The notes below the pieces were generated by a model. It was not told the DNA's origin, did not search any database, and saw nothing but the letters and a program-made list of their open reading frames with translations. From positions 1-64,000 of IMG/VR virus record IMGVR_UViG_3300027741_000025: 64,000 bases of DNA; one strand, 5' to 3'. Source of the stretch: a virus. Shown in pieces: positions 2,931-18,000 of this stretch (position 1 is its first letter; the number at the start of each line of letters is the position of its first letter). The translations under genes were made by a program, and so were the position numbers.

Positions 2931-3332
2931 TCAGTCATGATGCTTTATTAAAGAAACCACCATATCTTTGATTTCGGGCGATACAAATCGATCTTCTTTG
3001 TCAACCAGAGTATCAGTTTCTGGGTGATAAAAATAAATATTATCTCTTGTTTTTACAAAATAAATATCGCCTCTCTTAAGATACCCAGAACCCATTTTGG
3101 GATCAATTAAACTAACTTTTGTCTGGCGAGCATAATTTCTCAAAACATCTGCCATTGCAGGATTGTTTGTCTTTGGAAATTTTCTTATTGTTAAGTCTGG
3201 GGAACTTACCAGTTTTATAACTTCTGATTCATTGCCGTTAGTTGAGGACAAATTTTTATTATCAGTATAACTCGGATTATCAAAATGAAAAAATTCATTT
3301 TTAATACTTAGCCATTCATTAAAACTTTTCAT
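2931..3332 (-). CDS. Capsid-targeted protein, paralogue of 2057-2545
   Basis: 133 aa beginning MKSFNEWLSIKNEF. Closely similar to the protein at 2057-2545 over its whole length but ends after L-I-K-H-H-D, where the paralogue has a further tail. The near-identity of the central segment (V-S-S-P-D-L-T-I-R-K-F-P-K-T-N-N-P-A-M) suggests a recent duplication. Confidence 0.65.
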   Translation of the reverse strand: MKSFNEWLSIKNEFFHFDNPSYTDNKNLSSTNGNESEVIKLVSSPDLTIRKFPKTNNPAMADVLRNYARQTKVSLIDPKMGSGYLKRGDIYFVKTRDNIYFYHPETDTLVDKEDRFVSPEIKDMVVSLIKHHD

Positions 3333-3394
3333 GTCATTCCTTTCAAGATAAACTATATATGCTCAAAAATAACATTTTTTTCCCTATATATTAT

Positions 3395-4339
3395 ATGAAA
3401 TTTTATCAATTAGACCAAAAAATACAAGAAAATAATAACTTTAAATTAGCAGCAAAGTATATTATTGAAAACAATATAAATCTTAATGAATTCCTAGACA
3501 ACATATTGATTGTATTAAGTGAAAGTGAAGAGAATCCAGGATTCTTTCAAAGAATAGGGCGAAACATTTCAAACATGTGGAATAACTTCAGGGGAAATCC
3601 ATATGATGTTGAAAGTGTAACAAAAGCTTTACAAAAAGTAACTCAGTTTTTAAGTGGAAACGAACAATTAAAAAAAACTTATATCGATGAAATAAACTCT
3701 TTGGCAAATGTTGTCAAAAACATACAAGCAAAAAGTAAACCAGTAACACAAGGATCATCAGAAAAGTCAGAACCAAGCTCAGAAGCTCCAAAAAACGAAG
3801 AAGAATTGATACAAGGTTATATGAAAAGGCTCACTTATGGAAAGCCAATCGAGTCAATACAGGGCGGTCCTCACGAAAAATCAACTCGTCTTTATGCCGA
3901 AGTTTTGGCAAAACAAGATCCTCAGGAAGTTGAAAATACAAAAAACAAGTTAATTCAGGATTTGAAAGATAAAGTTGCTATGGTTGAGAAACTTGATCCA
4001 AGATCGAAACAAATTTTCGGACATGCTGAAATAAAAAAAGTTCTTGATCATGAAACCTGGGCTGTTTGGGATATTGGCAAACAATTGTATATGATGCAAA
4101 ATCCTTCAAAAAGTGGAGAAGGATATACTGTGGGAAATCCATTAAAAGATAAAAATATACAAGAAGATATAACAGACAGAATGGTAGGATGGGCAATAAC
4201 ACTAGGGGGGAGGATGGATCAAAACAATCCGTCAGTAATATCACCCAAACCTATTTATAGTAGCTTAAGATTAACAGAAATTGGTAGACAAGTTGTTCGC
4301 TCTGCAAAAAGCGGAGGCATTGATTTTCAAGATGAATAG
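3395..4339 (+). CDS. Putative internal head protein
   Basis: 314 aa from the ATG at 3395 (MKFYQLDQKIQE); an ATG at 3359 would add 12 hydrophobic residues and is less likely. Helix-rich N-terminus, then F-F-Q-R-I-G-R-N-I-S-N-M-W-N-N-F-R-G near residue 55, a Ser/Pro/Glu-rich linker near 125-145, and a C-terminal domain with W-A-V-W-D-I-G-K. The amphipathic start and the F-x3-I-G-x-N-I segment resemble the protein at 20547-21131, so both may be internal head proteins. Function unknown. Confidence 0.55.
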   Translation: MKFYQLDQKIQENNNFKLAAKYIIENNINLNEFLDNILIVLSESEENPGFFQRIGRNISNMWNNFRGNPYDVESVTKALQKVTQFLSGNEQLKKTYIDEINSLANVVKNIQAKSKPVTQGSSEKSEPSSEAPKNEEELIQGYMKRLTYGKPIESIQGGPHEKSTRLYAEVLAKQDPQEVENTKNKLIQDLKDKVAMVEKLDPRSKQIFGHAEIKKVLDHETWAVWDIGKQLYMMQNPSKSGEGYTVGNPLKDKNIQEDITDRMVGWAITLGGRMDQNNPSVISPKPIYSSLRLTEIGRQVVRSAKSGGIDFQDE

Positions 4340-4351
4340 TACATCTATACC

Positions 4352-4449
4352 AACCCCTTCTTAATTTTTTCTATAAATATATTCATGTTTTTCTTGTTGT
4401 AAACGTGACCAAAAAGATTCATCTCGGTCCAGACTTCAAAGGGGATGTT
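4352..4449 (-). pseudogene. Out-of-frame C-terminal tail of the kinase-like gene (copy 1 of a 98-bp repeat)
   Basis: On the minus strand this reads N-I-P-F-E-V-W-T-E-M-N-L-F-G-H-V and so on, to a stop after K-K-G-L-V. It starts 5 bases after the stop of the gene at 4455-5141. Adding one A to the A4 run just before that stop would join the two frames, giving S-P-K-M-V-S-C-N-I-P-F. So it looks like the lost C-terminus of that gene. It matches 5156-5253 at 95 of 98 bases. Confidence 0.65.
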
Positions 4450-4454
4450 ACAAC

Positions 4455-5141
4455 TTACCATTTTGGAGATCTTACTTTTGAGTTAGGTCCACCTAAATCA
4501 AAAATCACATAGGTGCCGTTTTCCCTTTTTCCTATATTTCCTGGATGGAAATCATCAATTGCTACTCCTGATTTTTTTACATCTTTTATTATTTTATCAA
4601 AATTGAATTTATTTTTAAGAATTGAAACAGCGTTTTGATAAATTTTATTTTCTGGATTTGATTCTTCAATTTGATCCCAAGACATTGTCATAAATGGATA
4701 AGTATAATTCATACTTTCGGGCAGGTCTTCCGAAACAGTATCGATTGCTTCATAATAAGTTTTAGATTCTAGTGCATCTATTGGATATATTCTTTCTTGA
4801 ACAATTATTCCAAAATTTCCATTATTCCATCTATCCCATTTTGGAACTTCGTATGTAAAATTTATTACTTTATATATTCTACACATGTAATTGTATTGTT
4901 TATTTTCTAAGTGTTTGGATATCCATAATTCATTTGCATCATATGTTGCTTTTAAAACTTCTCCATTTTGTAATAAATATGCTTCTCCGTTATCCCCTCT
5001 TCCTAATAATTTTATATTTTCTATATTTATTCCTTTTTCATTGAGAAGATTTTTATACTCATTTAATAGAATTTTGATTCTGAGGTGGTAGTTTGCCCTT
5101 GGATCATCCTCGTTTAATAACCAATTTTTAAAACTTTTCAT
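4455..5141 (-). CDS. Protein-kinase-like capsid-targeted protein, probably 3'-frameshifted
   Basis: 228 aa from MKSFKNWLLNE-D (ATG at 5141); L-N-E is a plausible prohead-protease site. The mature part has kinase-fold landmarks in order: Gly-rich loop L-G-R-G-D-N-G-E-A-Y-L-L near residue 46, a Lys in V-L-K-A-T near 63, a catalytic-loop-like I-D-D-F-H-P-G-N-I-G near 197, and F-D-L-G-G near 214 in the DFG position. D-x-H-P-x-N is the form used by aminoglycoside-phosphotransferase and RIO/ABC1-type kinases. The reading frame ends soon after the DFG-like motif, and a conserved tail lies out of frame at 4352-4449. If packaged and injected it could phosphorylate a host target, as T4 injects Alt; substrate unknown. 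Confidence 0.6.
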   Translation of the reverse strand: MKSFKNWLLNEDDPRANYHLRIKILLNEYKNLLNEKGINIENIKLLGRGDNGEAYLLQNGEVLKATYDANELWISKHLENKQYNYMCRIYKVINFTYEVPKWDRWNNGNFGIIVQERIYPIDALESKTYYEAIDTVSEDLPESMNYTYPFMTMSWDQIEESNPENKIYQNAVSILKNKFNFDKIIKDVKKSGVAIDDFHPGNIGKRENGTYVIFDLGGPNSKVRSPKW

Positions 5142-5155
5142 AACATATTTACACA

Positions 5156-5253
5156 AACCCCTTCTTAATTTTTTCTATAAATCTGTTCATGTTTTTCTTG
5201 TTGTAAACATGACCAAAAAGATTCATCTCGGTCCAGACTTCAAAGGGGATGTT
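5156..5253 (-). pseudogene. Orphan C-terminal tail, copy 2 of a 98-bp repeat
   Basis: Nearly identical to 4352-4449 and in the same orientation, encoding the same tail (F-E-V-W-T-E-M-N-L-F-G-H-V). The upstream sequence (5254 onward) is unrelated, so this is the end of a second kinase-like gene whose body is gone, next to the endonuclease insertion. The rest of 5254-5353 shows no gene. Confidence 0.6.
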
Positions 5254-5353
5254 TAATTTGACTCAGATGGAGCTGGTGCGAAAAGACAAATAAAATTATT
5301 GTTTAAATATTAAGAAATAATTTTAAAGTTATCCTTCGAGAAGGAGCGAAATT

Positions 5354-6484
5354 TTATGTGGATTTTAATTCGGATTGTTTGATTTTATATCTTTCTTTGT
5401 GCCTCAAAGATTCACAGTTTTTGCACTTATCTCTATAGCCATCGCGCCTAGATTTGTCTTTACTAAAAAGATCAAGAAGTTTTATTTCGTTACACTTTTT
5501 ACATTGCTTTTTGCCTTCCTTTTCGTAAGGATTTTCTTTAATCAAATGCGGCTTAGGTTTACTTCCTGATATGTGTCCACCTTCTTTTTCGCAGATGTAT
5601 CTTCCATTTCTTTTGATGTTTTTATCGTAGCTTTTCCTTAAAACAGAGTGATTTTCTTTACAATATTCACAATAAACATTAACTTTATCTAAAGCTATTT
5701 TTTCATGGTAGTGTTTTTTGGCTTTTTTTCTATTATTTTCTCTCCTATATTCATGATAATCAATTCCTGTGTTTTTTGTTCTGTAATCATCTGCCCATAT
5801 TCGAATCTGATTATAGTTCATTCCTAAATCATCTTCTGTCATTAATTTAAAGAGCCAATTATTCTTGAGAGCATATTCTTTGCTGTCTTCTATTTGATTT
5901 TTAAACTCATCCACTCTCTGCTTAGGTTTCATTTCAATTGCTTTTTTCTCGCCACTTTTATAAGTCACAAGACAGTCCAGACACCTACCTCTTCCGTTTA
6001 TTTGAAATCCTAATTGAGTTTCGAAATCCAATACTGTTTCATCTGAATCCAATATCCAGCAAAGTCTAAGTTCATAAGAAGAATCATACGAAAGCTTTCT
6101 GCCCGTTTTTTTAGATTCAAATACTCCTCTTCTTTTAGACTTATCATATTTATGTACAGAATGGTTTTCCGCTGTCATCACAGAGAGTTTATTCTTAAGT
6201 TTCTTTCCTTCCTCAGTAAGGTAAAAAGCTATTTTTGCTTCTGCCATTTTTCTGCATGTTTCTGGCGAACGTTTATAAGATGTGGATTCTGATATTCTTT
6301 TTTTTCCCTCCTTGGTGTAACAACAAGTTCTGCATTTGAATGTTCCATGATTTTTTATATTTCTGGCGGCTGAGTCTTTGTTTGTTGACATTTGATTTTT
6401 GCAGCCTTCAACACCGCAAAACATAGAGATTTTGTCTCTAAAACCATATTTTTTGTATTTAATTTCAAATTCTTCGATATTCAT
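5354..6484 (-). CDS. PD-(D/E)XK-type homing endonuclease candidate
   Basis: 376 aa. N-terminal Cys motifs (C-G-V-E-G-C and C-R-T-C-C) suggest a zinc ribbon. The middle has S-Y-D-S-S-Y-E-L-R near residue 132, then R-C-L-D-C-L-V-T-Y near 166 and A-I-E-M-K-P near 181. This is the E...D...E-x-K order of the PD-(D/E)XK fold seen in TnsA/Vsr-like and EDxHD-type phage homing enzymes. A C-terminal zinc-finger pair (C-K-K-C ... C-K-N-C) follows. Its ATG overlaps the stop of the upstream gene as ATGA, so the two are co-translated. Position beside the capsid gene fits a homing element. Confidence 0.6.
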   Translation of the reverse strand: MNIEEFEIKYKKYGFRDKISMFCGVEGCKNQMSTNKDSAARNIKNHGTFKCRTCCYTKEGKKRISESTSYKRSPETCRKMAEAKIAFYLTEEGKKLKNKLSVMTAENHSVHKYDKSKRRGVFESKKTGRKLSYDSSYELRLCWILDSDETVLDFETQLGFQINGRGRCLDCLVTYKSGEKKAIEMKPKQRVDEFKNQIEDSKEYALKNNWLFKLMTEDDLGMNYNQIRIWADDYRTKNTGIDYHEYRRENNRKKAKKHYHEKIALDKVNVYCEYCKENHSVLRKSYDKNIKRNGRYICEKEGGHISGSKPKPHLIKENPYEKEGKKQCKKCNEIKLLDLFSKDKSRRDGYRDKCKNCESLRHKERYKIKQSELKST

Positions 6485-6846
6485 TTGTTTTGCTTTTTCT
6501 CTTCGAATGTGTTCTTCATCGACTCTGATATTTTTTGTTTTTTCTCCTCTGACGATTTCGGCATCTTCAAGCCCTTATTCCATCCTGCCGAGTATCCAAA
6601 AATGAGATTATTCTCCCAGATTTCAGGATGATCTTTCATAAATTGACTCTTTTTATTAATAACATCTTCGGTTTGAATGGCTTTTATAGCCTTGGAAAGT
6701 TTCGCGCGACACTCTAAAGTTTTTTCTTTACCTATCTGACAACAACTTTTACATATCTTTAAAAATGGAGGCTCATTCTTCATCCATTTCTTTTTAGCCT
6801 TAACAGTTCTTTCCTCACCACATTCAGGACATTTAATTTGATACAT
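6481..6846 (-). CDS. Small zinc-ribbon/NUMOD3-like protein of the homing unit
   Basis: 121 aa from the ATG at 6846, which has AAGGAG seven bases upstream. N-terminal C-P-E-C-G-E-E and C-K-S-C-C form a zinc-ribbon-like pair. The C-terminus (G-W-N-K-G-L-K-M-P-K-S-S-E-E, then K-I-S-E-S-M-K) matches the NUMOD3 DNA-binding motif found next to GIY-YIG and HNH homing domains. There is no nuclease domain of its own. It probably supplies DNA binding for the nuclease at 5354-6484, or the two are halves of a split endonuclease. Confidence 0.55.
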   Translation of the reverse strand: MYQIKCPECGEERTVKAKKKWMKNEPPFLKICKSCCQIGKEKTLECRAKLSKAIKAIQTEDVINKKSQFMKDHPEIWENNLIFGYSAGWNKGLKMPKSSEEKKQKISESMKNTFEEKKQNK

Positions 6847-6921
6847 ATTTTTCTCCTTCACTAATATATTACCATTAAGTCAAATTCCACGCAATAGAAT
6901 TTTGATCTGAGGTTATACAAT

Positions 6922-6980: not shown

Positions 6981-8414
6981 TTACACGATAAAATTGGCTA
7001 TGTTGAGGCGAGCGTAGAACTTTGCTCCCTCTCTAAGCAACTTCTTCCCATACCTTGTTAACAGTCCTTTTCTTGGGGAGAAGGAATCTGGGTCTAACAC
7101 AACTGGTGTCTGTGTGAGTGGCACGTATGGGCAGTAGAAATATCCGCTGTCCATATAGCTGTCACCCTTATAACCCATAAGGAGCTGTCCGGTTGGGAAC
7201 AGTGGATCCTTATACAGTCTCCAACGATTGTTTACAGTACCGACATACTGGATGCCGAGTGAGCTTGTAAATGTTTCTGAAGGAGCTGGTGCGAAACCCG
7301 CAGTAGCTGTTTCGAAAACTGAAGCAACTTCTGGTGATGTAACAATGAAGTTAGCACCGCCACGAAGTGTCTTACGATGGATCACGTTGCTGACTTCAAC
7401 AACCTTGACGTATAGTGATTCATACTTTTCCTTGATGGTATCACCAAGAGCAGTATTGAAATCCCAAGCTGAAACAGTACCAGCGTTATTGCGGAGGTCA
7501 CCAAGAACTTCACGATCGATTTCAAGGTTGATTTCCTGAGCAAGAACGGCAGTTAGCTCAGCCTCGGCGTCGAGGTTGTGCTGTGAGCGAAGATCTTGCT
7601 GAGCTTCGTAGCTCCAAACTGCCTTCAGTTTGCGAGTCTTAGCGGCAATTTCCTGGCTCTCGATTGTCAGATTGATCTCTGGCATATCGGGGTTGTTTTC
7701 CATGTTGTATTCATAGCTGATTACAACCTTTGAACCACCCGATGAACCTGTCCAAGTTAGTGCAAGAGCACCATCAGCTAGGCTGAGTGTACCAGCAGTA
7801 ACATAAGCACCACCACTAACGTCAACGCTGGTAAGACTTAGGCTGCTGCTGTTTGCAGGAACAACGAATGTCTGGATAACGTTAACACCATCATAGACGG
7901 TACCAGTGACAGTACCAGCAACAACTGGAACGTGCTCAAGTGTAGCACTTGTGACGTTGCCCGAAACACTGGCGTGAACTTCGTTCTGAACGAACTGATG
8001 TGAATAGAAAACGTCAAGGTTAGCAGTGCCGTCAGCAAGCTGCTGTAGTGAGTTAGCATCATCGCCGGGGAAGCCGACTTTGTTGCTAGCACCACGGACC
8101 GCACCCTTGTCGCTTCCGTATCTAAAACGGAGATAGTAAACGAGACCGGTTGGTCCGAGCAATGGCTGGACTGAAACGATCTTGTTTGCAATCAACTGTG
8201 GATAAACTCTACGAACGAGTGGGATGCTGATTCTCTTGAATTGAGCAACGTCACCTGTGTCAGTAGCAGACTCATTGATGAGTCTCTGGTTTTCAAGAAG
8301 TACGGCTGTATTGGATCGGACAGTACGATCTTCGATTCCATCTAATAAGCCAGTCTTCTTCCAACGAGACTCTAACTCCTTAGCCTCGTTTAGAAATTTA
8401 GCATTGATATTCAT
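6981..8414 (-). CDS. Major capsid protein (T4 gp23-like)
   Basis: 477 aa. After an N-terminal helical prosequence, R-R-V-Y-P-Q-L-I-A-N-K-I and S-V-Q-P-L-L-G-P-T-G match the gp23 segment that opens the HK97-fold core. L-I-N-E48|S49 is the likely prohead-protease cut; L-N-E10|A is a second possible site. A beta-rich insertion (about residues 155-245) precedes the conserved I-E-S-Q-E-I-A-A-K-T-R-K-L and A-E-L-T-A-V-L-A-Q-E-I-N. AGAAAAGG lies upstream of the ATG. Last gene of the head cluster, followed by a strong terminator. Confidence 0.95.
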   Translation of the reverse strand: MNINAKFLNEAKELESRWKKTGLLDGIEDRTVRSNTAVLLENQRLINESATDTGDVAQFKRISIPLVRRVYPQLIANKIVSVQPLLGPTGLVYYLRFRYGSDKGAVRGASNKVGFPGDDANSLQQLADGTANLDVFYSHQFVQNEVHASVSGNVTSATLEHVPVVAGTVTGTVYDGVNVIQTFVVPANSSSLSLTSVDVSGGAYVTAGTLSLADGALALTWTGSSGGSKVVISYEYNMENNPDMPEINLTIESQEIAAKTRKLKAVWSYEAQQDLRSQHNLDAEAELTAVLAQEINLEIDREVLGDLRNNAGTVSAWDFNTALGDTIKEKYESLYVKVVEVSNVIHRKTLRGGANFIVTSPEVASVFETATAGFAPAPSETFTSSLGIQYVGTVNNRWRLYKDPLFPTGQLLMGYKGDSYMDSGYFYCPYVPLTQTPVVLDPDSFSPRKGLLTRYGKKLLREGAKFYARLNIANFIV

Positions 8415-8463: not shown

Positions 8464-9360
8464 TTAATTGGTTCTTTTAACACCAGCTAAGACTTGTAAA
8501 TCGTTGAAGTCACTTGTGTCGCTAGCATTTTCCGCAATGATAGCTTCACCGGCAACTAGTTGTCCTCTCCCCGATACATTCTTGCTTTTTTCGACTCTTT
8601 CATTCTGTTCATTAACAATCCCAGTCTTCTTAGCGACAACTGCAACTTCTTTCTGCTCAGTAATAACATTGTGAGCAGCTCTTACAGCTTCGTTAAGTTT
8701 GGTGTTCTCGGTGCTTAAGCGAATGCTTCTGGCTTCGAGGAGCTTGATTTGACCCTTCAGGTCATCAATAGCCTTCTTTGATTCTTCAAGTTTGGCACCT
8801 GAAGCAGCAGCATAATCTTCGTCACTTAAGTAATCACTTGTGATATCAACGATCTTGTCGAAGGCACTCTTGTGCTCAGCCATTCTTGGATCGTTCATAA
8901 TATCATGTTTGGCTTGTTCATAAATCTCAGATCCCTTGAACTGTAGGAACTGATCGACTTTATCAACAATGTATTCTTTCATCTCAGCGAGCTTCTTGTC
9001 ATACTCTTCGTATAGGGAAACTTCGAGATTACCATTCTTGCTTCTTTCTTCTTTGAGCATTTGGTAAGCTTCTTCATAACCCTCTTCAAGAGCAGCTTCA
9101 TACTCTTCGCTTTGAACTTCGAGTCTATTTCTTAGCTCACTGATAATTGAGTAAGCTTCGGTATAACCCTTCTCAGCGACAGTTTCGGCGTCTTTGAGTT
9201 CCTTGGAAAGCTCAGCATAAGCTTCCTCAAGTTTGTTGTTGAATTCAGTCTCTAACTCTGTCTTAGCTTCCTTCAGCATCTCCTCAATGGCTGAAGTAAC
9301 TTCACTAACTTGATCTTCAGGCAACAGTTTCTCAAGTGCCTCTTGGATTTTATTGTTCAT
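8464..9360 (-). CDS. Prohead scaffold/core protein (T4 gp22-like)
   Basis: 298 aa from the ATG at 9360, which overlaps the protease stop as ATGA and has GAGGTG upstream; a longer reading from 9417 would run far into the protease gene. Almost entirely Glu/Lys/Ala-rich coiled coil, with repeated A-Y-x-x-L/E-E-A-Y heptads. Position between protease and capsid gene is that of T4 gene 22. The core is expected to be digested by the prohead protease after assembly. Confidence 0.85.
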   Translation of the reverse strand: MNNKIQEALEKLLPEDQVSEVTSAIEEMLKEAKTELETEFNNKLEEAYAELSKELKDAETVAEKGYTEAYSIISELRNRLEVQSEEYEAALEEGYEEAYQMLKEERSKNGNLEVSLYEEYDKKLAEMKEYIVDKVDQFLQFKGSEIYEQAKHDIMNDPRMAEHKSAFDKIVDITSDYLSDEDYAAASGAKLEESKKAIDDLKGQIKLLEARSIRLSTENTKLNEAVRAAHNVITEQKEVAVVAKKTGIVNEQNERVEKSKNVSGRGQLVAGEAIIAENASDTSDFNDLQVLAGVKRTN

Positions 9361-10052
9361 GAGCCTACACCTCGCTTTAATGAATTGGTTGAATTTTCTA
9401 TTAATGTACCTAAGCAAGCAATTAAAGCTTGTTTATTCACTTTATATATGCTTGAGCTTTCATTTTTTCTCGAAAATTCTTCCACCGCAGAAGAATTTTC
9501 CATACTCACCACTGAACTTTCCTTTTTAGCTGGAACTTTTTCTTGGTAAGCAGCAAATGTGCTTGGATCGGCAACTGCATCGAATGTTATTAACTTGTAG
9601 CTTTCGCCAATCACAAGTATTCCATTCTCGTCAACTTTGCCATTACCAACACCTCTACTACTGATGCCAATTCTAACTCCATCGTTTAAAAGACTTTTCA
9701 GTATTTTTCCATGAGGAGTGTTGAGGATTTCCCCTTCACCCATCAATACATTTCCGTCCCACCAGAGCTTTGTAATAACATGACTTGCCTTCTCAAAGTG
9801 AATGATGCTATCAGTTGGATGATCCAACTCACCAATCAAGCCTCTGTGTTTTACGCACTCTTGTAATTTCTTGACGTTCTCATCGAGGACGCCATATGGG
9901 TACATTCTTTTGTTTTTATTAATTGCTTCTGCTTCTTGGAATTTACCTCTGAATTTGGTGAGCCCTTTATCACTCACCGATTCATTCAAATCCATCGTGA
10001 AGCCAGAATGCTGACAACTGTCTATGAATAGTATTTCTTGTATTTCTTTCAT
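9357..10052 (-). CDS. Prohead maturation protease (T4 gp21-like)
   Basis: 231 aa. Conserved blocks of the phage prohead serine protease family are in order: F-R-G-K-F and N-K-N-K-R-M-Y-P near residue 45, G-E-L-D-H-P with the catalytic His near 78, and G-I-S-S-R-G with the catalytic Ser near 131, then F-D-A-V-A-D-P-S. The variable C-terminus may be self-cleaved. AAGGAG upstream. It should cut after I/L-x-E, and the same motif recurs in the leaders of many small proteins in this window. Confidence 0.93.
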   Translation of the reverse strand: MKEIQEILFIDSCQHSGFTMDLNESVSDKGLTKFRGKFQEAEAINKNKRMYPYGVLDENVKKLQECVKHRGLIGELDHPTDSIIHFEKASHVITKLWWDGNVLMGEGEILNTPHGKILKSLLNDGVRIGISSRGVGNGKVDENGILVIGESYKLITFDAVADPSTFAAYQEKVPAKKESSVVSMENSSAVEEFSRKNESSSIYKVNKQALIACLGTLIENSTNSLKRGVGS

Positions 10053-13486: not shown

Positions 13487-13493
13487 TTCTTGG

Positions 13494-13529
13494 CAGACCC
13501 ACTGATGAAAATTGGTGGGTCTGTTTTTA
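13494..13529 (+). terminator. Rho-independent terminator after the C39-like peptidase gene
   Basis: Perfect 9-bp stem CAGACCCAC (13494-13502) with GTGGGTCTG (13515-13523), 12-base loop, followed by TTTTT. It starts 7 bases after the stop. Confidence 0.92.
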
Positions 13530-13531
13530 TT

Positions 13532-13768
13532 TCAAAATAATTTTGATGGAATTTCTCTTCTGATCCCAAAAGACGCAAACCTAGGCTTTCGCTTTTCCTT
13601 TTTTCTGTTTTTCTTAGTTGGAGGTAGGTCATCTCCACCCAAACTCATATTAGGATCTGCTGTTAATTCGCTTCCAAGGGGTGGATGATCATTTTGATCT
13701 GTGGCTGGGTCAGCCATAGAACCATAAATAAATCCTCCACCACTTTCAAGCCATTGTTTAAAGTTCAT
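13532..13768 (-). CDS. Small capsid-targeted protein (MNFKQWLES leader)
   Basis: 78 aa, starting MNFKQWLES-G-G-G, a variant of the capsid-targeting leader with a possible cut after W-L-E or W-L-E-S. The middle is Asp/Pro/Gly-rich; the end is strongly basic (K-K-N-R-K-K-E-K-R-K-P-R). Its ATG overlaps the stop of the small gene at 13765-13932 as ATGA. Confidence 0.55.
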   Translation of the reverse strand: MNFKQWLESGGGFIYGSMADPATDQNDHPPLGSELTADPNMSLGGDDLPPTKKNRKKEKRKPRFASFGIRREIPSKLF

Positions 13769-13932
13769 AGTTTTTTTAAAACTTCTGTAGCCTTATCCAA
13801 TTCTTCTTGTGTTTCAAACTTTAAAGTTGAAGAACCATCCTCGTTTTTTTCCACTCTATAGCTTGAATTTATCTCGTTGAGAAGTTCTCTTATTTTCTTA
13901 ATTTCACTTGTTGATACTTGTAAATTAAACAT
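13765..13932 (-). CDS. Short coiled-coil protein, unknown function
   Basis: 55 aa (M-F-N-L-Q-V-S-T-S-E-I-K-K-I-R-E-L-L-N-E to E-V-L-K-K-L). A strong AAGGAG lies five bases before the ATG at 13932, and the stop overlaps the next ATG as ATGA. Predicted as helix, strand pair (Y-R-V-E-K ... T-L-K-F), helix. Good start signal and coupling support a real gene despite its size. Confidence 0.7.
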   Translation of the reverse strand: MFNLQVSTSEIKKIRELLNEINSSYRVEKNEDGSSTLKFETQEELDKATEVLKKL

Positions 13933-13941
13933 TTTTTCTCC

Positions 13942-14928
13942 TTATATTGTAGCTGTTGGGGCTGGAGTAGCTGTAGCTGTTGGGGCTGGAGTAGCTGTAG
14001 CTGTTGGGGCTGGAGTAGCTGTAGCTGTTGGGGCTGGAGTAGCTGTCACTGTTGGTGTTGGAGTAGGTGTTGGAATTACGATAGTCTGTGTTAATATTGA
14101 TTCAAGCAAAGAATTCCATTCCTCACCAGCACCTTCTCCACCAATAGGAGGTGCATCATACCAATCCCAGCCCAGAACATATATTTTGCCATCTCCATAA
14201 GGAATCAAGGTAACTACGGATTGATTTACTCCATCGCCTTCGTAAATAGTAATAGAATTTTCTGGTAATGTGCTTGTAACTATTGATGATGTGGCACTAA
14301 GATCAATAAGAGCTCTACTCGCCTCAGGAAAAATTTCAGAACCAATTTCTGTTAAAGAAATTGGTTCGTCTGAACCATCAGTAGCATCTAGGCTAAATCC
14401 AAAAACCGCATTTAACACTTCTGGCACATCGCCATTATTTGGATGAAACATAACTAGTGTTCCACCACTGTACACATAGTTTTCCAAATAGGATTTGGCG
14501 CCGATGGTCAAATCAGGATTTAAATCCTCTTTTTCTATCTCAGGTATTAATAAAAACCCGCCTGAGAAACTTGCAAAACTTGATGCACTAATATCTGTAA
14601 ATGTTGTGTAAGATATACCGACACTATTCATAAAAGCAATAAGATTATTTGGTTCTCGACTGACGCTACCATTAACATTTTCTATATAGTCAACATATTT
14701 ATTGTTAATTAGTATATGAATGCCTCCTTGTTTGACTCCATCAATAATATTATTGAATTGCTCGCCATCAGCAAGACGTCCTACCATTTTTCTATTTTCT
14801 CCATTTACAACCATAACTCCATTAAGAGTTCTTTGTAAAGATTTGCCATTAAGTAAAGAGGTATCTAAACCTCCTTCTGTTGCCATATTAACAACATCGG
14901 GACTTAAATTAACTATAAAATCAGTCAT
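13942..14928 (-). CDS. Virion-associated protein with ThuA/GATase-like domain and C-terminal Pro/Thr repeats
   Basis: 328 aa. Residues 1-270 look like an alpha/beta fold of the ThuA/glutamine-amidotransferase-like type: G-I-H-I-L-I-N-N-K, then L-E-N-Y-V-Y-S-G-G-T-L-V-M-F-H near 160, and Y-G-D-G-K-I-Y-V-L-G-W-D-W-Y-D near 253. I see no catalytic Cys nucleophile, so it may only bind ligand. The final 45 residues are P-T-P-T/A-P-T-A-T repeats running to the stop. It lies directly downstream of the large adhesin at 15007-19158 and is probably part of the same fibre or decoration set. Confidence 0.5.
   Translation of the reverse strand: MTDFIVNLSPDVVNMATEGGLDTSLLNGKSLQRTLNGVMVVNGENRKMVGRLADGEQFNNIIDGVKQGGIHILINNKYVDYIENVNGSVSREPNNLIAFMNSVGISYTTFTDISASSFASFSGGFLLIPEIEKEDLNPDLTIGAKSYLENYVYSGGTLVMFHPNNGDVPEVLNAVFGFSLDATDGSDEPISLTEIGSEIFPEASRALIDLSATSSIVTSTLPENSITIYEGDGVNQSVVTLIPYGDGKIYVLGWDWYDAPPIGGEGAGEEWNSLLESILTQTIVIPTPTPTPTVTATPAPTATATPAPTATATPAPTATATPAPTATI
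13949..14045 (-). repeat. 24-bp tandem repeat encoding PAPTATAT
   Basis: About four near-identical 24-bp units at the 3' end of the gene at 13942-14928, in frame. Confidence 0.85.
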
Positions 14929-14962
14929 AATATATTCCTTTTAATTAAATGTGAATTAGTGC

Positions 14963-15000
14963 TGTGATAATATTTAGTGCTGTTGTGATAATATTTAGTG
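14963..15000 (-). promoter_or_regulatory. Paired 17-bp direct repeat, candidate tandem promoter or operator
   Basis: CACTAAATATTATCACA on the minus strand, perfect at 14963-14979 and 14984-15000 with a 21-base period (two helical turns). It lies 35-72 bases before the ATG at 14928. The core CTAAATA resembles the motif before the genes at 1045 and 12800. It could be a tandem late promoter or a dimeric repressor site. Confidence 0.4.
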
Positions 15001-15006
15001 TTGTTT

Positions 15007-18000
15007 TTATGGCAAGGATGCTCCACGCCAAGAATTTGAATACCCCCAATTGTTTGTTTTACTAATTGTCGAAGTAGAATAACTTAAATTAAATCCAGTT
15101 GATCCACTGTTAAAACTAGACGGCTGTGCGTACACCACAAAGAAAGGCAAAAAGTCCCCAGGAACTAAATTAATATTTACTGACTGTTCATTAGTAACTC
15201 CGCCTAAGTCATAATTACTCATTGTTGGAGATAAAGCATGAGATCCTAGCCATAGATAACTTCCGCTATCTGCAGATAGGTAAAAAGTATGAGTTTCTGC
15301 AGTTGTTGCCAAAAAATATCCTTGTATCTTAATGACTCCAGCACCCCAATTCATTAGGTTTTGACCAACAACTGTTCCCGAACTATATACAACACTTACT
15401 GTGCTGTGAGTGCCAAAATATTCAATTGTGTCATCCCATTCACTAGCATATATGTAAGCCGTATATCCTGCGTTTAAGCCCCCAGGATCAGGGTATGTTA
15501 TTGGGTATGGTGTATTAGTTGGAGTCGGAGTCGGTGTTGGTGTTGGTGTTGGACAAATTTCTATATTTGAAATAGTGTTGTAAGAAGCCCACATAAACGA
15601 TTTATTTTCACTTGAATAATAATAATATTTATTTGCAACCACAGTTTGAATTTGTGCTCCTAAGGAATCCAAATAAAAACTCATACCATTAGTAAGTGTT
15701 GGGCTTGGAGAATATATGGTTATTTCTCCCCAACCCTCCGATTCTAAAGCGCACGCAGTTTCATTATCAACCCAACCATACTTATTATTCATACCATCTG
15801 ATTCACTATATTTTATTGTATATGAATACGGTGCTAAATCACCAGTAGCTGTTGCTGTTGGTTCAGGTGTAGCTGTTGCTGTTGGTTCAGGTGTAGCTGT
15901 TGCTGTTGGTTCAGGTGTAGCTGTTGCTGTTGGTTCAGGTGTAGCTGTTGCTGTTGGTTCAGGTGTAGCTGTTGCTGTTGGCGTAGGTGTAGCTGTTGCT
16001 GTTGGCGTAGGTGTAGCTGTTGCTGTTGGTGTAGGTGTAGCTGTTGCTGTTGGCGTAGGTGTAGCTGTTGCTGTTGGCGTAGGTGTAGCTGTTGCTGTTG
16101 GCGTAGGTGTTGGTGTTGGTGTTGGTGTAACCACCACAGGTTCTACGAACGAACTAACTGCGTTATACCAAGTATTTGTGTCTGAGCTCACAATTTCGCC
16201 ATCTTTAGCCGAAACTACTTTTCTGTTTCCGCAATTATCAGTAAGTTCAAAGTATCCGGTTCTCTGGATACTTCTACGTTTTCCGGTAACTGGATCGACT
16301 ATTATTGCAGTATCCATATTGCCTTCTCCGTCATAGGCATAATTAGGAATAGTTTCTGGATGATCTGGACTAAGATTTAATTCATATGTCTTTGGACCAC
16401 AGCCACCTAATCCAGCTACTTCCAAGAATTTAGTTGCAATTTCTTTTGCTTCTGCAGCCTCCATTGCAACCCCATTGCCTTTGCCCACACAAAGAAAGAA
16501 GAGTTTTGTCTTGCCCTCAAGCCCAGTGATGCAATGCTCATCACCCCTAGAAGTTGGATCATAAAACTGATCGATTCCATCTCCATTACCATCAACGATT
16601 ATAATGTGGTTTATCGAAGGATCACCAGCACCATAATTAGTTTTGAGATATGCGGTATAAGTGTTGCCCCCTGCGTTAATTGGGAATATTTCTGAAATAT
16701 CTGCACCGTCGCCGTCCGATCCTATATCCCCAGTTATTGAAAACTGTGTGATGTTGATGTTGTTTGCCGCAAGCACGAACATTCCGGGGAACATAGCTGT
16801 GAAGTAACTGCTCCCTTCACCGAAATATCCATCACCGACCATGACGTGGCTGTCGCACACAGGGAGATATCGGTACTCAGGCCACTCAATATCGTCGCTA
16901 CCTGTTTCGTCTGGACCTCTTGATTCATCATAAAAATCGTCCTCTGGTCCTTGATCCCATGCTTGAGTGTGAGTGGAAGGAATGCTACTGTTAGCGTTAA
17001 GCCCACAAATAACTCCGGCTTCGGGACACCCGCAAGCTCCTTCACCACCGCTGACAACATTATTGCCTCCATAGCACTTAATGTAAAGATAAGGAAGCGT
17101 CAGATTGGTATTTAAAAAATTTGCTCCGTCATACATGTCGTCCATGCCGTCGTCTATTCCCATCTGCTTGAAAGCAGGAAGAACGCTCCACTCCTGCAAC
17201 GTGCCATTTGCGTCCAACTTGGCGTATTGAAACCTTGCGGCATGGTTGTAATCAGTGAAACTTCCGGCAACATAAACATTACCATCAGCGTCCAATTTTA
17301 TATCTTGAACTCTTGGACCCCAATTCCATCCATTATAACTGAATCCGAATCCGATATCGAATGTTCTGTCTATCGAAGTAGATGCAGCAGGATAGGTATA
17401 TTCCAATCTTGCTATCCTGCTCTGCCACAACCCGTTTGCATTGTCGAACCAACCACCAACTATTATCTTTCCATCATCTTGAAGAGCTATGGTGTTAACT
17501 CCGCCTTGATGATTGCCATCATCGGGTGTGTCTCCTGTCCAAACATCATCAAAGAAAACAGAAAGGAAATTATTGTCTCTAGTTCCGTCGCTGTTCAAAA
17601 GAGTCAGTCCCTTTCCACAATCTACGCCATTATAGGTGCTGAACCAGTGTCCAACTAAAACTTTATTATCAGGCTGAACCTTGATGGAACTTACTCTGGG
17701 ATTGCCACCGCCGATACTACTACCAAACCCAGACCCTACGCTAAAACTGCCGTCTGTGGTTCCGTCTTCATTCAACTTTATGATCTTGTTCGTGAACTGA
17801 CCGCCGACATATATTCCAAGGGTTCCTCCGGAATAGTCGCCCGTCACCTCTATTGCGTGAACAGCGCCATTCAATGAAACATTTCCCGCAAAGGTTCCAT
17901 CCACAATTCCATTGCTGTCCAAAAGGGCAATTTTGCTACAATTTACGCCGCCATATTGGTTAAAACTTCCACCAATCAAGATTCGGTCATCACTTAGCAC

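Follow-up and report, generated by a model that had tools for sequence, protein, structure and literature searches.

The kinase-like gene and its surroundings

The window that we analyzed covers 64 kb at the start of a virus record of 144,363 bases. It encodes a T4-type major capsid protein and a gp21-type prohead protease, and in the same region there is a kinase-like ORF bracketed by a 114-bp direct repeat (4336-4449 and 5140-5253; 92% identical). The best matches of the capsid protein in an annotated phage collection were one uncultured phage record at 73% identity, followed by Flavobacterium phages at 38%. The features of the locus are listed below, where L numbers are our handles for loci in other records.

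3359..4339, plus strand: convergent gene that marks the limit of the insert; L005-L007 have it too, with neither kinase nor remnants in front of it
4345..4449, minus strand: remnant copy 2 (the tail), the final 34 codons plus stop codon of a TnsA-like homing endonuclease; part of the repeat, matches the C-termini in L029, L069 and L025
4450..4457, minus strand: TAAGTTGT, lead-in to remnant copy 2, includes the kinase TAA; shared with the kinase-less L012
4455..5141, minus strand: kinase-like ORF of 228 aa (TAA at 4457-4455 included), from motifs, fold predicted with the A2 alignment and kinase matches
5109..5141, minus strand: leader MKSFKNWLLNE of the capsid-targeting type, with F4, W7 and an L-x-E (LNE) at residues 9-11
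5149..5253, minus strand: remnant copy 1, adjacent to the kinase start on its upstream side; part of the repeat, similar stub in L012
5354..6484, minus strand: resident TnsA-like endonuclease ORF of 376 aa (PF08722, E 5.2e-06, above cut-off)
6481..6861, minus strand: small 126-aa ORF preceding the one of 376 aa; the pair is conserved in L011 and L014
6981..8414, minus strand: major capsid protein, T4-type (phrog_138, E 2.8e-85)
9357..10052, minus strand: prohead protease, gp21-type (phrog_207, E 9.2e-49)

There are other repeats in the region. The very start of the record (1-260) is an array of tandem repeats of 12-24 bp, of the type ACACCTACCAAGACACCAGTACCT. A direct repeat at 2208-2480 and 2992-3264 (83% identical) corresponds to two paralogous genes (2057-2545 and 2931-3332) with the leader MKSFNEWL. 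An intergenic element of approximately 70 bp that contains CGCACCAGCTCCAT, at 5257-5325 in the window, is common to L005, L006, L007 and L012. L005 has copies of this element at 6442-6511 and 7484-7550 that flank the counterpart of the convergent gene, a second instance in this region of a gene enclosed by repeats.

A predicted compact kinase fold

The kinase-like ORF starts with an ATG at 5141, with an alternative TTG at 5156. A sequence-only reading of this DNA had claimed a Gly-rich loop, a Lys, D-D-F-H-P-G-N and F-D-L-G-G after the leader, and all of these are present, as LGRGDNGEAY, VLK, DDFHPGNIG and IFDLGG. The catalytic set of a kinase is complete: the GRGDNG loop, K64 (the beta-3 Lys), D197, N202 and D215 (the DFG Asp).

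No kinase homologue turned up when we searched annotated phages, IMG/VR, GTDB genomes and 26 related phage records directly, and the window protein alone had no significant family match. A Pfam match to Aca2_YdiL (E 0.046) was below the cut-off and we took it as chance. Scanning for the pattern DFHPGNxG gave zero matches; matches to D[LF]HPGN were mostly unrelated, with some large proteins that have kinase-like motifs. The relatives were recovered with the DNA patterns LGxGxNGxAYxL and NGxAY...GxVxK, which gave 15 phage sequences that we aligned as A2. GxNGxAY and GxVxK are invariant in A2, which is partly selection because the search patterns fix both the glycine loop and the Lys. Outside of this selection, N202 and D215 are invariant and T66, E71, G204 and G209 are nearly invariant, while conservation of the catalytic-loop Asp (D197) is incomplete.

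AlphaFold2 with A2 produced a model with a pLDDT of 82.8 and a pTM of 0.81; the single sequence gave 36.9 and 0.27, which is unusable. The top Foldseek matches in the PDB were PknB (E 3.8e-05, probability 1.00), GCN2, PknA and APH(2''), and the top matches in BFVD were phage proteins, several of them with a protein kinase annotation. TM-scores against the PDB entries reached only about 0.4, which fits a model that has no C-lobe. When we compared the A2 profile with PDB sequences, 60/60 of the matches listed were kinases, with weak E-values (best 0.009). The suggestion that the protein is kinase-like was therefore borne out by the catalytic residues, the model, the Foldseek matches (APH(2'') included) and the A2 profile. 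Together they support a predicted compact protein-kinase fold without the C-terminal subdomain for the 4455-5141 ORF, as a member of a phage family.

Only 13 residues lie between D215 and the C-terminus, and the model has no helices past the DFG-equivalent. The stand-alone relatives also terminate shortly past this point (L119 ends one residue past that Asp), and kinases without a C-terminal subdomain, stand-alone forms included, have been described from phage polyvalent proteins (Iyer et al. 2017, PMC5512222). Given the short relatives and this description, no missing tail is expected.

Two arrangements of related genes were seen along the way. L157 has a tandem pair of kinase-family genes (2240-2962 and 2967-3662), each with the leader MIKLVNLL. 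L093 and L095-L098 have very large phage ORFs with the motifs of two kinase-like domains (LGSGAFGYAF with DLHPGNVG, and IGSGAFGKAF with DIHSANLG), and these ORFs look like polyvalent proteins.

Endonuclease remnants on both sides

After the kinase stop there is a gap of 5 bases (4454-4450), followed in another frame by NIPFEVWTEMNLFGHVYNKKNMNIFIEKIKKGLV-stop (4449-4345), the tail that is carried by each copy of the 114-bp repeat. For the tail comparison, we fetched loci by capsid-protein similarity. The tail, NIPFEVWTEMNLFGHVYNKKNMN.FIEKIKKG.V, corresponds to the final ~34 codons of a gene for a TnsA-like homing endonuclease, and the peptide is in frame at the C-termini of endonuclease ORFs in L029 (88%), L069 (21/21 residues) and L025 (58%). 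The L069 ORF has a TnsA-like domain (PF08722, E 6.8e-10) and NUMOD3, which marks it as the homing-endonuclease type. Searching annotated phages for the homing endonuclease gave one weak match, in a Xanthomonas phage.

The tail also occurs where there is no kinase. L012 and L014 have it as a stub on its own, and in L012 the stub is preceded by TAAGTTGTAACATCCCC exactly as copy 2 is in the window, including the TAA at which the kinase ORF terminates. When 22 related records were searched, only the window record and the L012 and L014 records had the repeat at ≥92%; the L069 record had it at 83%. A complete nuclease domain is absent from the window copies, which hold the last ~34 codons only, so both are remnants rather than endonuclease genes. 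Judged by these sequence comparisons, a free-standing gene for a TnsA-like homing endonuclease left its 3' end here as the out-of-frame tail, which is separate from the kinase gene.

The four stubs, which come from three phages (the two in the window, L012 12401-12513 and L014 15152-15274), have nearly the same start point. Copy 2 differs from the L012 stub by 7 synonymous and 2 non-synonymous changes (binomial 7e-5; 0.004 if the synonymous share is set generously). Such mainly synonymous differences indicate recent coding constraint, on intact ancestors or on the stubs themselves. If it was on the stubs, the remnant would be a functional small gene or element that is kept for its short encoded peptide, and both the common start and an in-frame ATG inside would fit with that. 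However, there are only four stubs, the divergence may be older than the truncation of intact genes, and none of the possible starts was shown to have a clear ribosome-binding site, so we consider a function of this kind unlikely.

The position of the kinase stop raises a different concern. It lies in sequence that is common to the L012 stub, which puts the end of the ORF at a junction, where the protein could have lost a few of its original last residues. As no close homologue of the kinase was found, its C-terminus is provisional. At the extreme, the ORF would be a 3'-truncated pseudogene in which a deletion joined the shortened end to the endonuclease remnant, and the AT-rich composition of the gene (28% GC, compared to 36% for the window) could be counted in favor of this. 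We find it improbable, as the catalytic motifs are all there, the relatives likewise end soon after the DFG-equivalent and nothing is missing from the predicted fold for a kinase of this type.

No need for a frameshift

The tail was originally read as the end of the kinase, one base out of frame. The geometry behind that reading is real: a stop, a 5-base gap, and an AAAA run at 4464-4461 (minus strand) where a one-base insertion yields one ORF. What did not stand is the assignment, since the tail belongs to the endonuclease. There are two conceivable explanations for a longer kinase. A single A may have been lost from the run, through a recent frameshift or a sequencing or assembly error, or the ribosome may make a programmed -1 shift at A-AAA, which does lead into the tail frame.

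The A4 run carries nothing special. With its frame open for another 14 codons upstream, the tail can be fused to the kinase by a single inserted base anywhere between 4484 and 4455, a choice of 30 positions. None of the kinase relatives that we found has the tail, and a full-length homologue with kinase and tail was absent among the relatives reached in related phages. A lost A would also have to account for the second tail copy upstream of the kinase and for the kinase-less copies in L012 and L014. As for a programmed shift, reading the sequence gave no standard slippery heptamer in frame at the A4 run, and the RNA around it has no extra structure compared to shuffles (z 0.33). Since the tail is an endonuclease remnant that occurs with or without the kinase, the frameshift reading fails, and we rejected a frameshift, an indel error and a programmed -1 shift. 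We would give a lost A very little chance and programmed shifting next to none. The kinase ORF terminates at the stop in the lead-in to remnant copy 2, and no frameshift is needed.

We are confident that these are two unrelated neighbors: a compact kinase-like ORF with a leader of the capsid-targeting type, and the 3' remnants of a homing endonuclease that bracket it. One false frameshift candidate is removed by this, and the case is a reminder that a decayed homing endonuclease beside a gene can mimic a broken gene tail.

Leader and probable packaging

T4 internal proteins have a capsid-targeting leader of 10-19 residues in which residues 4 and 7 matter, and they are cleaved after L/I-x-E (PMC9026906). 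The leader motif MK[STK][FY]..[WYF] opens 10 window ORFs (at least 60 aa) and none in 20 first-order Markov controls, so it is beyond chance. In 5/10 of these ORFs, L/I-x-E occurs within the first 30 residues. With this excess, the L-x-E of the kinase and a gp21-type protease in the phage, the proposal of a capsid-targeting type of leader is supported.

The kinase relatives in L121, L127, L135, L155 and L157 have another leader, MI[KR]L..LL, with L-x-E at residues 7-10. This leader is also found on other ORFs of the same locus in L121, L127, L155 and L157, and the L121 record has a gp21-type protease and a T4-type capsid protein as well. In the L119 record (G027), a match to the gp21-type protease at 114919-115617 crosses six TGA and one TAA codons, and it may be a case of a recoded stop or a decayed gene.

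From the leaders and the protease, we believe that the kinase is likely packaged and injected. It would enter the prohead, have its leader trimmed by the gp21-type protease and be injected with the DNA. If active, it would probably phosphorylate a host protein early in infection, by analogy with the T7 precedent cited in PMC5512222. A T4-type phage that likely injects a kinase, and relatives of this kinase under another leader in other phages, make virion-delivered phosphorylation of host proteins testable.

History of the locus

In L005-L007, which have a capsid protein that is 99% identical, the kinase and both of the remnants are missing from this site. Related phages have differing genes here, several of which are endonucleases or endonuclease-like. 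L014 has yet another insert at the same place, an ORF of 546 aa with DUF7487 (E 2.5e-40) at 13488-15161, directly upstream of its stub.

In T4, segments are gained and lost by recombination between short homologies (PMC9391042). The remnants likely acted as such homologies when the kinase gene was acquired, and recombination between the two remnant copies would be predicted to lose it again. We suggest that scraps of endonucleases may serve as recombination points for the swapping of injected effectors. A broader picture, which we offer only tentatively and would not be surprised to see fail, is that T4-type phages have a family of virion-packaged kinases without a C-lobe, with genome-specific leaders, that are swapped via the homologies left by displaced homing endonucleases.

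Comparison with known systems

T7 gp0.7 is a phage kinase that is synthesized in the infected cell and not carried in the virion. The window kinase would resemble it in being expected to act on host proteins. Only the relative in L127 matches the gp0.7 family (phrog_15752, E 9.5e-05); the window protein had no significant match to the profile of this family, and hhalign of A2 against T7 gp0.7 gave a probability of 25.6.

The window kinase also resembles the kinases of phage polyvalent proteins. Like them, the window protein keeps the ATP-binding and phosphotransfer residues without the C-terminal subdomain. The features given for that group are a Gln in the last strand of the N-terminal subdomain, a Glu N-terminal to strand 2 and an insert between the catalytic His and Asp (PMC5512222). 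The Gln is present in the window protein (IIVQE) and in L144, L149, L152 and L156, and is absent from the L121/L127/L157 group. As for the Glu, the window protein has E53 in NGEAY, in a column of A2 that varies. Unlike the kinases of PMC5512222, the window kinase has a T4-type capsid-targeting leader and lies in a T4-type head-gene region.

In its short N-terminal leader, its L/I-x-E cleavage motif and the gp21-type protease of the phage, the window kinase is like the T4 internal proteins and Alt. It differs from these in that the cargo has a kinase fold and in that packaging is deduced from the leader and protease.

The endonuclease remnants have a parallel in segD, which sits between T4 genes 23 and 24 (PMC2988022). 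Both are of the free-standing homing-endonuclease kind, inserted beside the major capsid gene and variable among close relatives. Unlike segD, the source of the window tail is a TnsA-like nuclease with NUMOD3 and not a GIY-YIG enzyme, and only 3' remnants are left, in two copies. The kinds of element at this locus are already known, and it is their arrangement that is informative.
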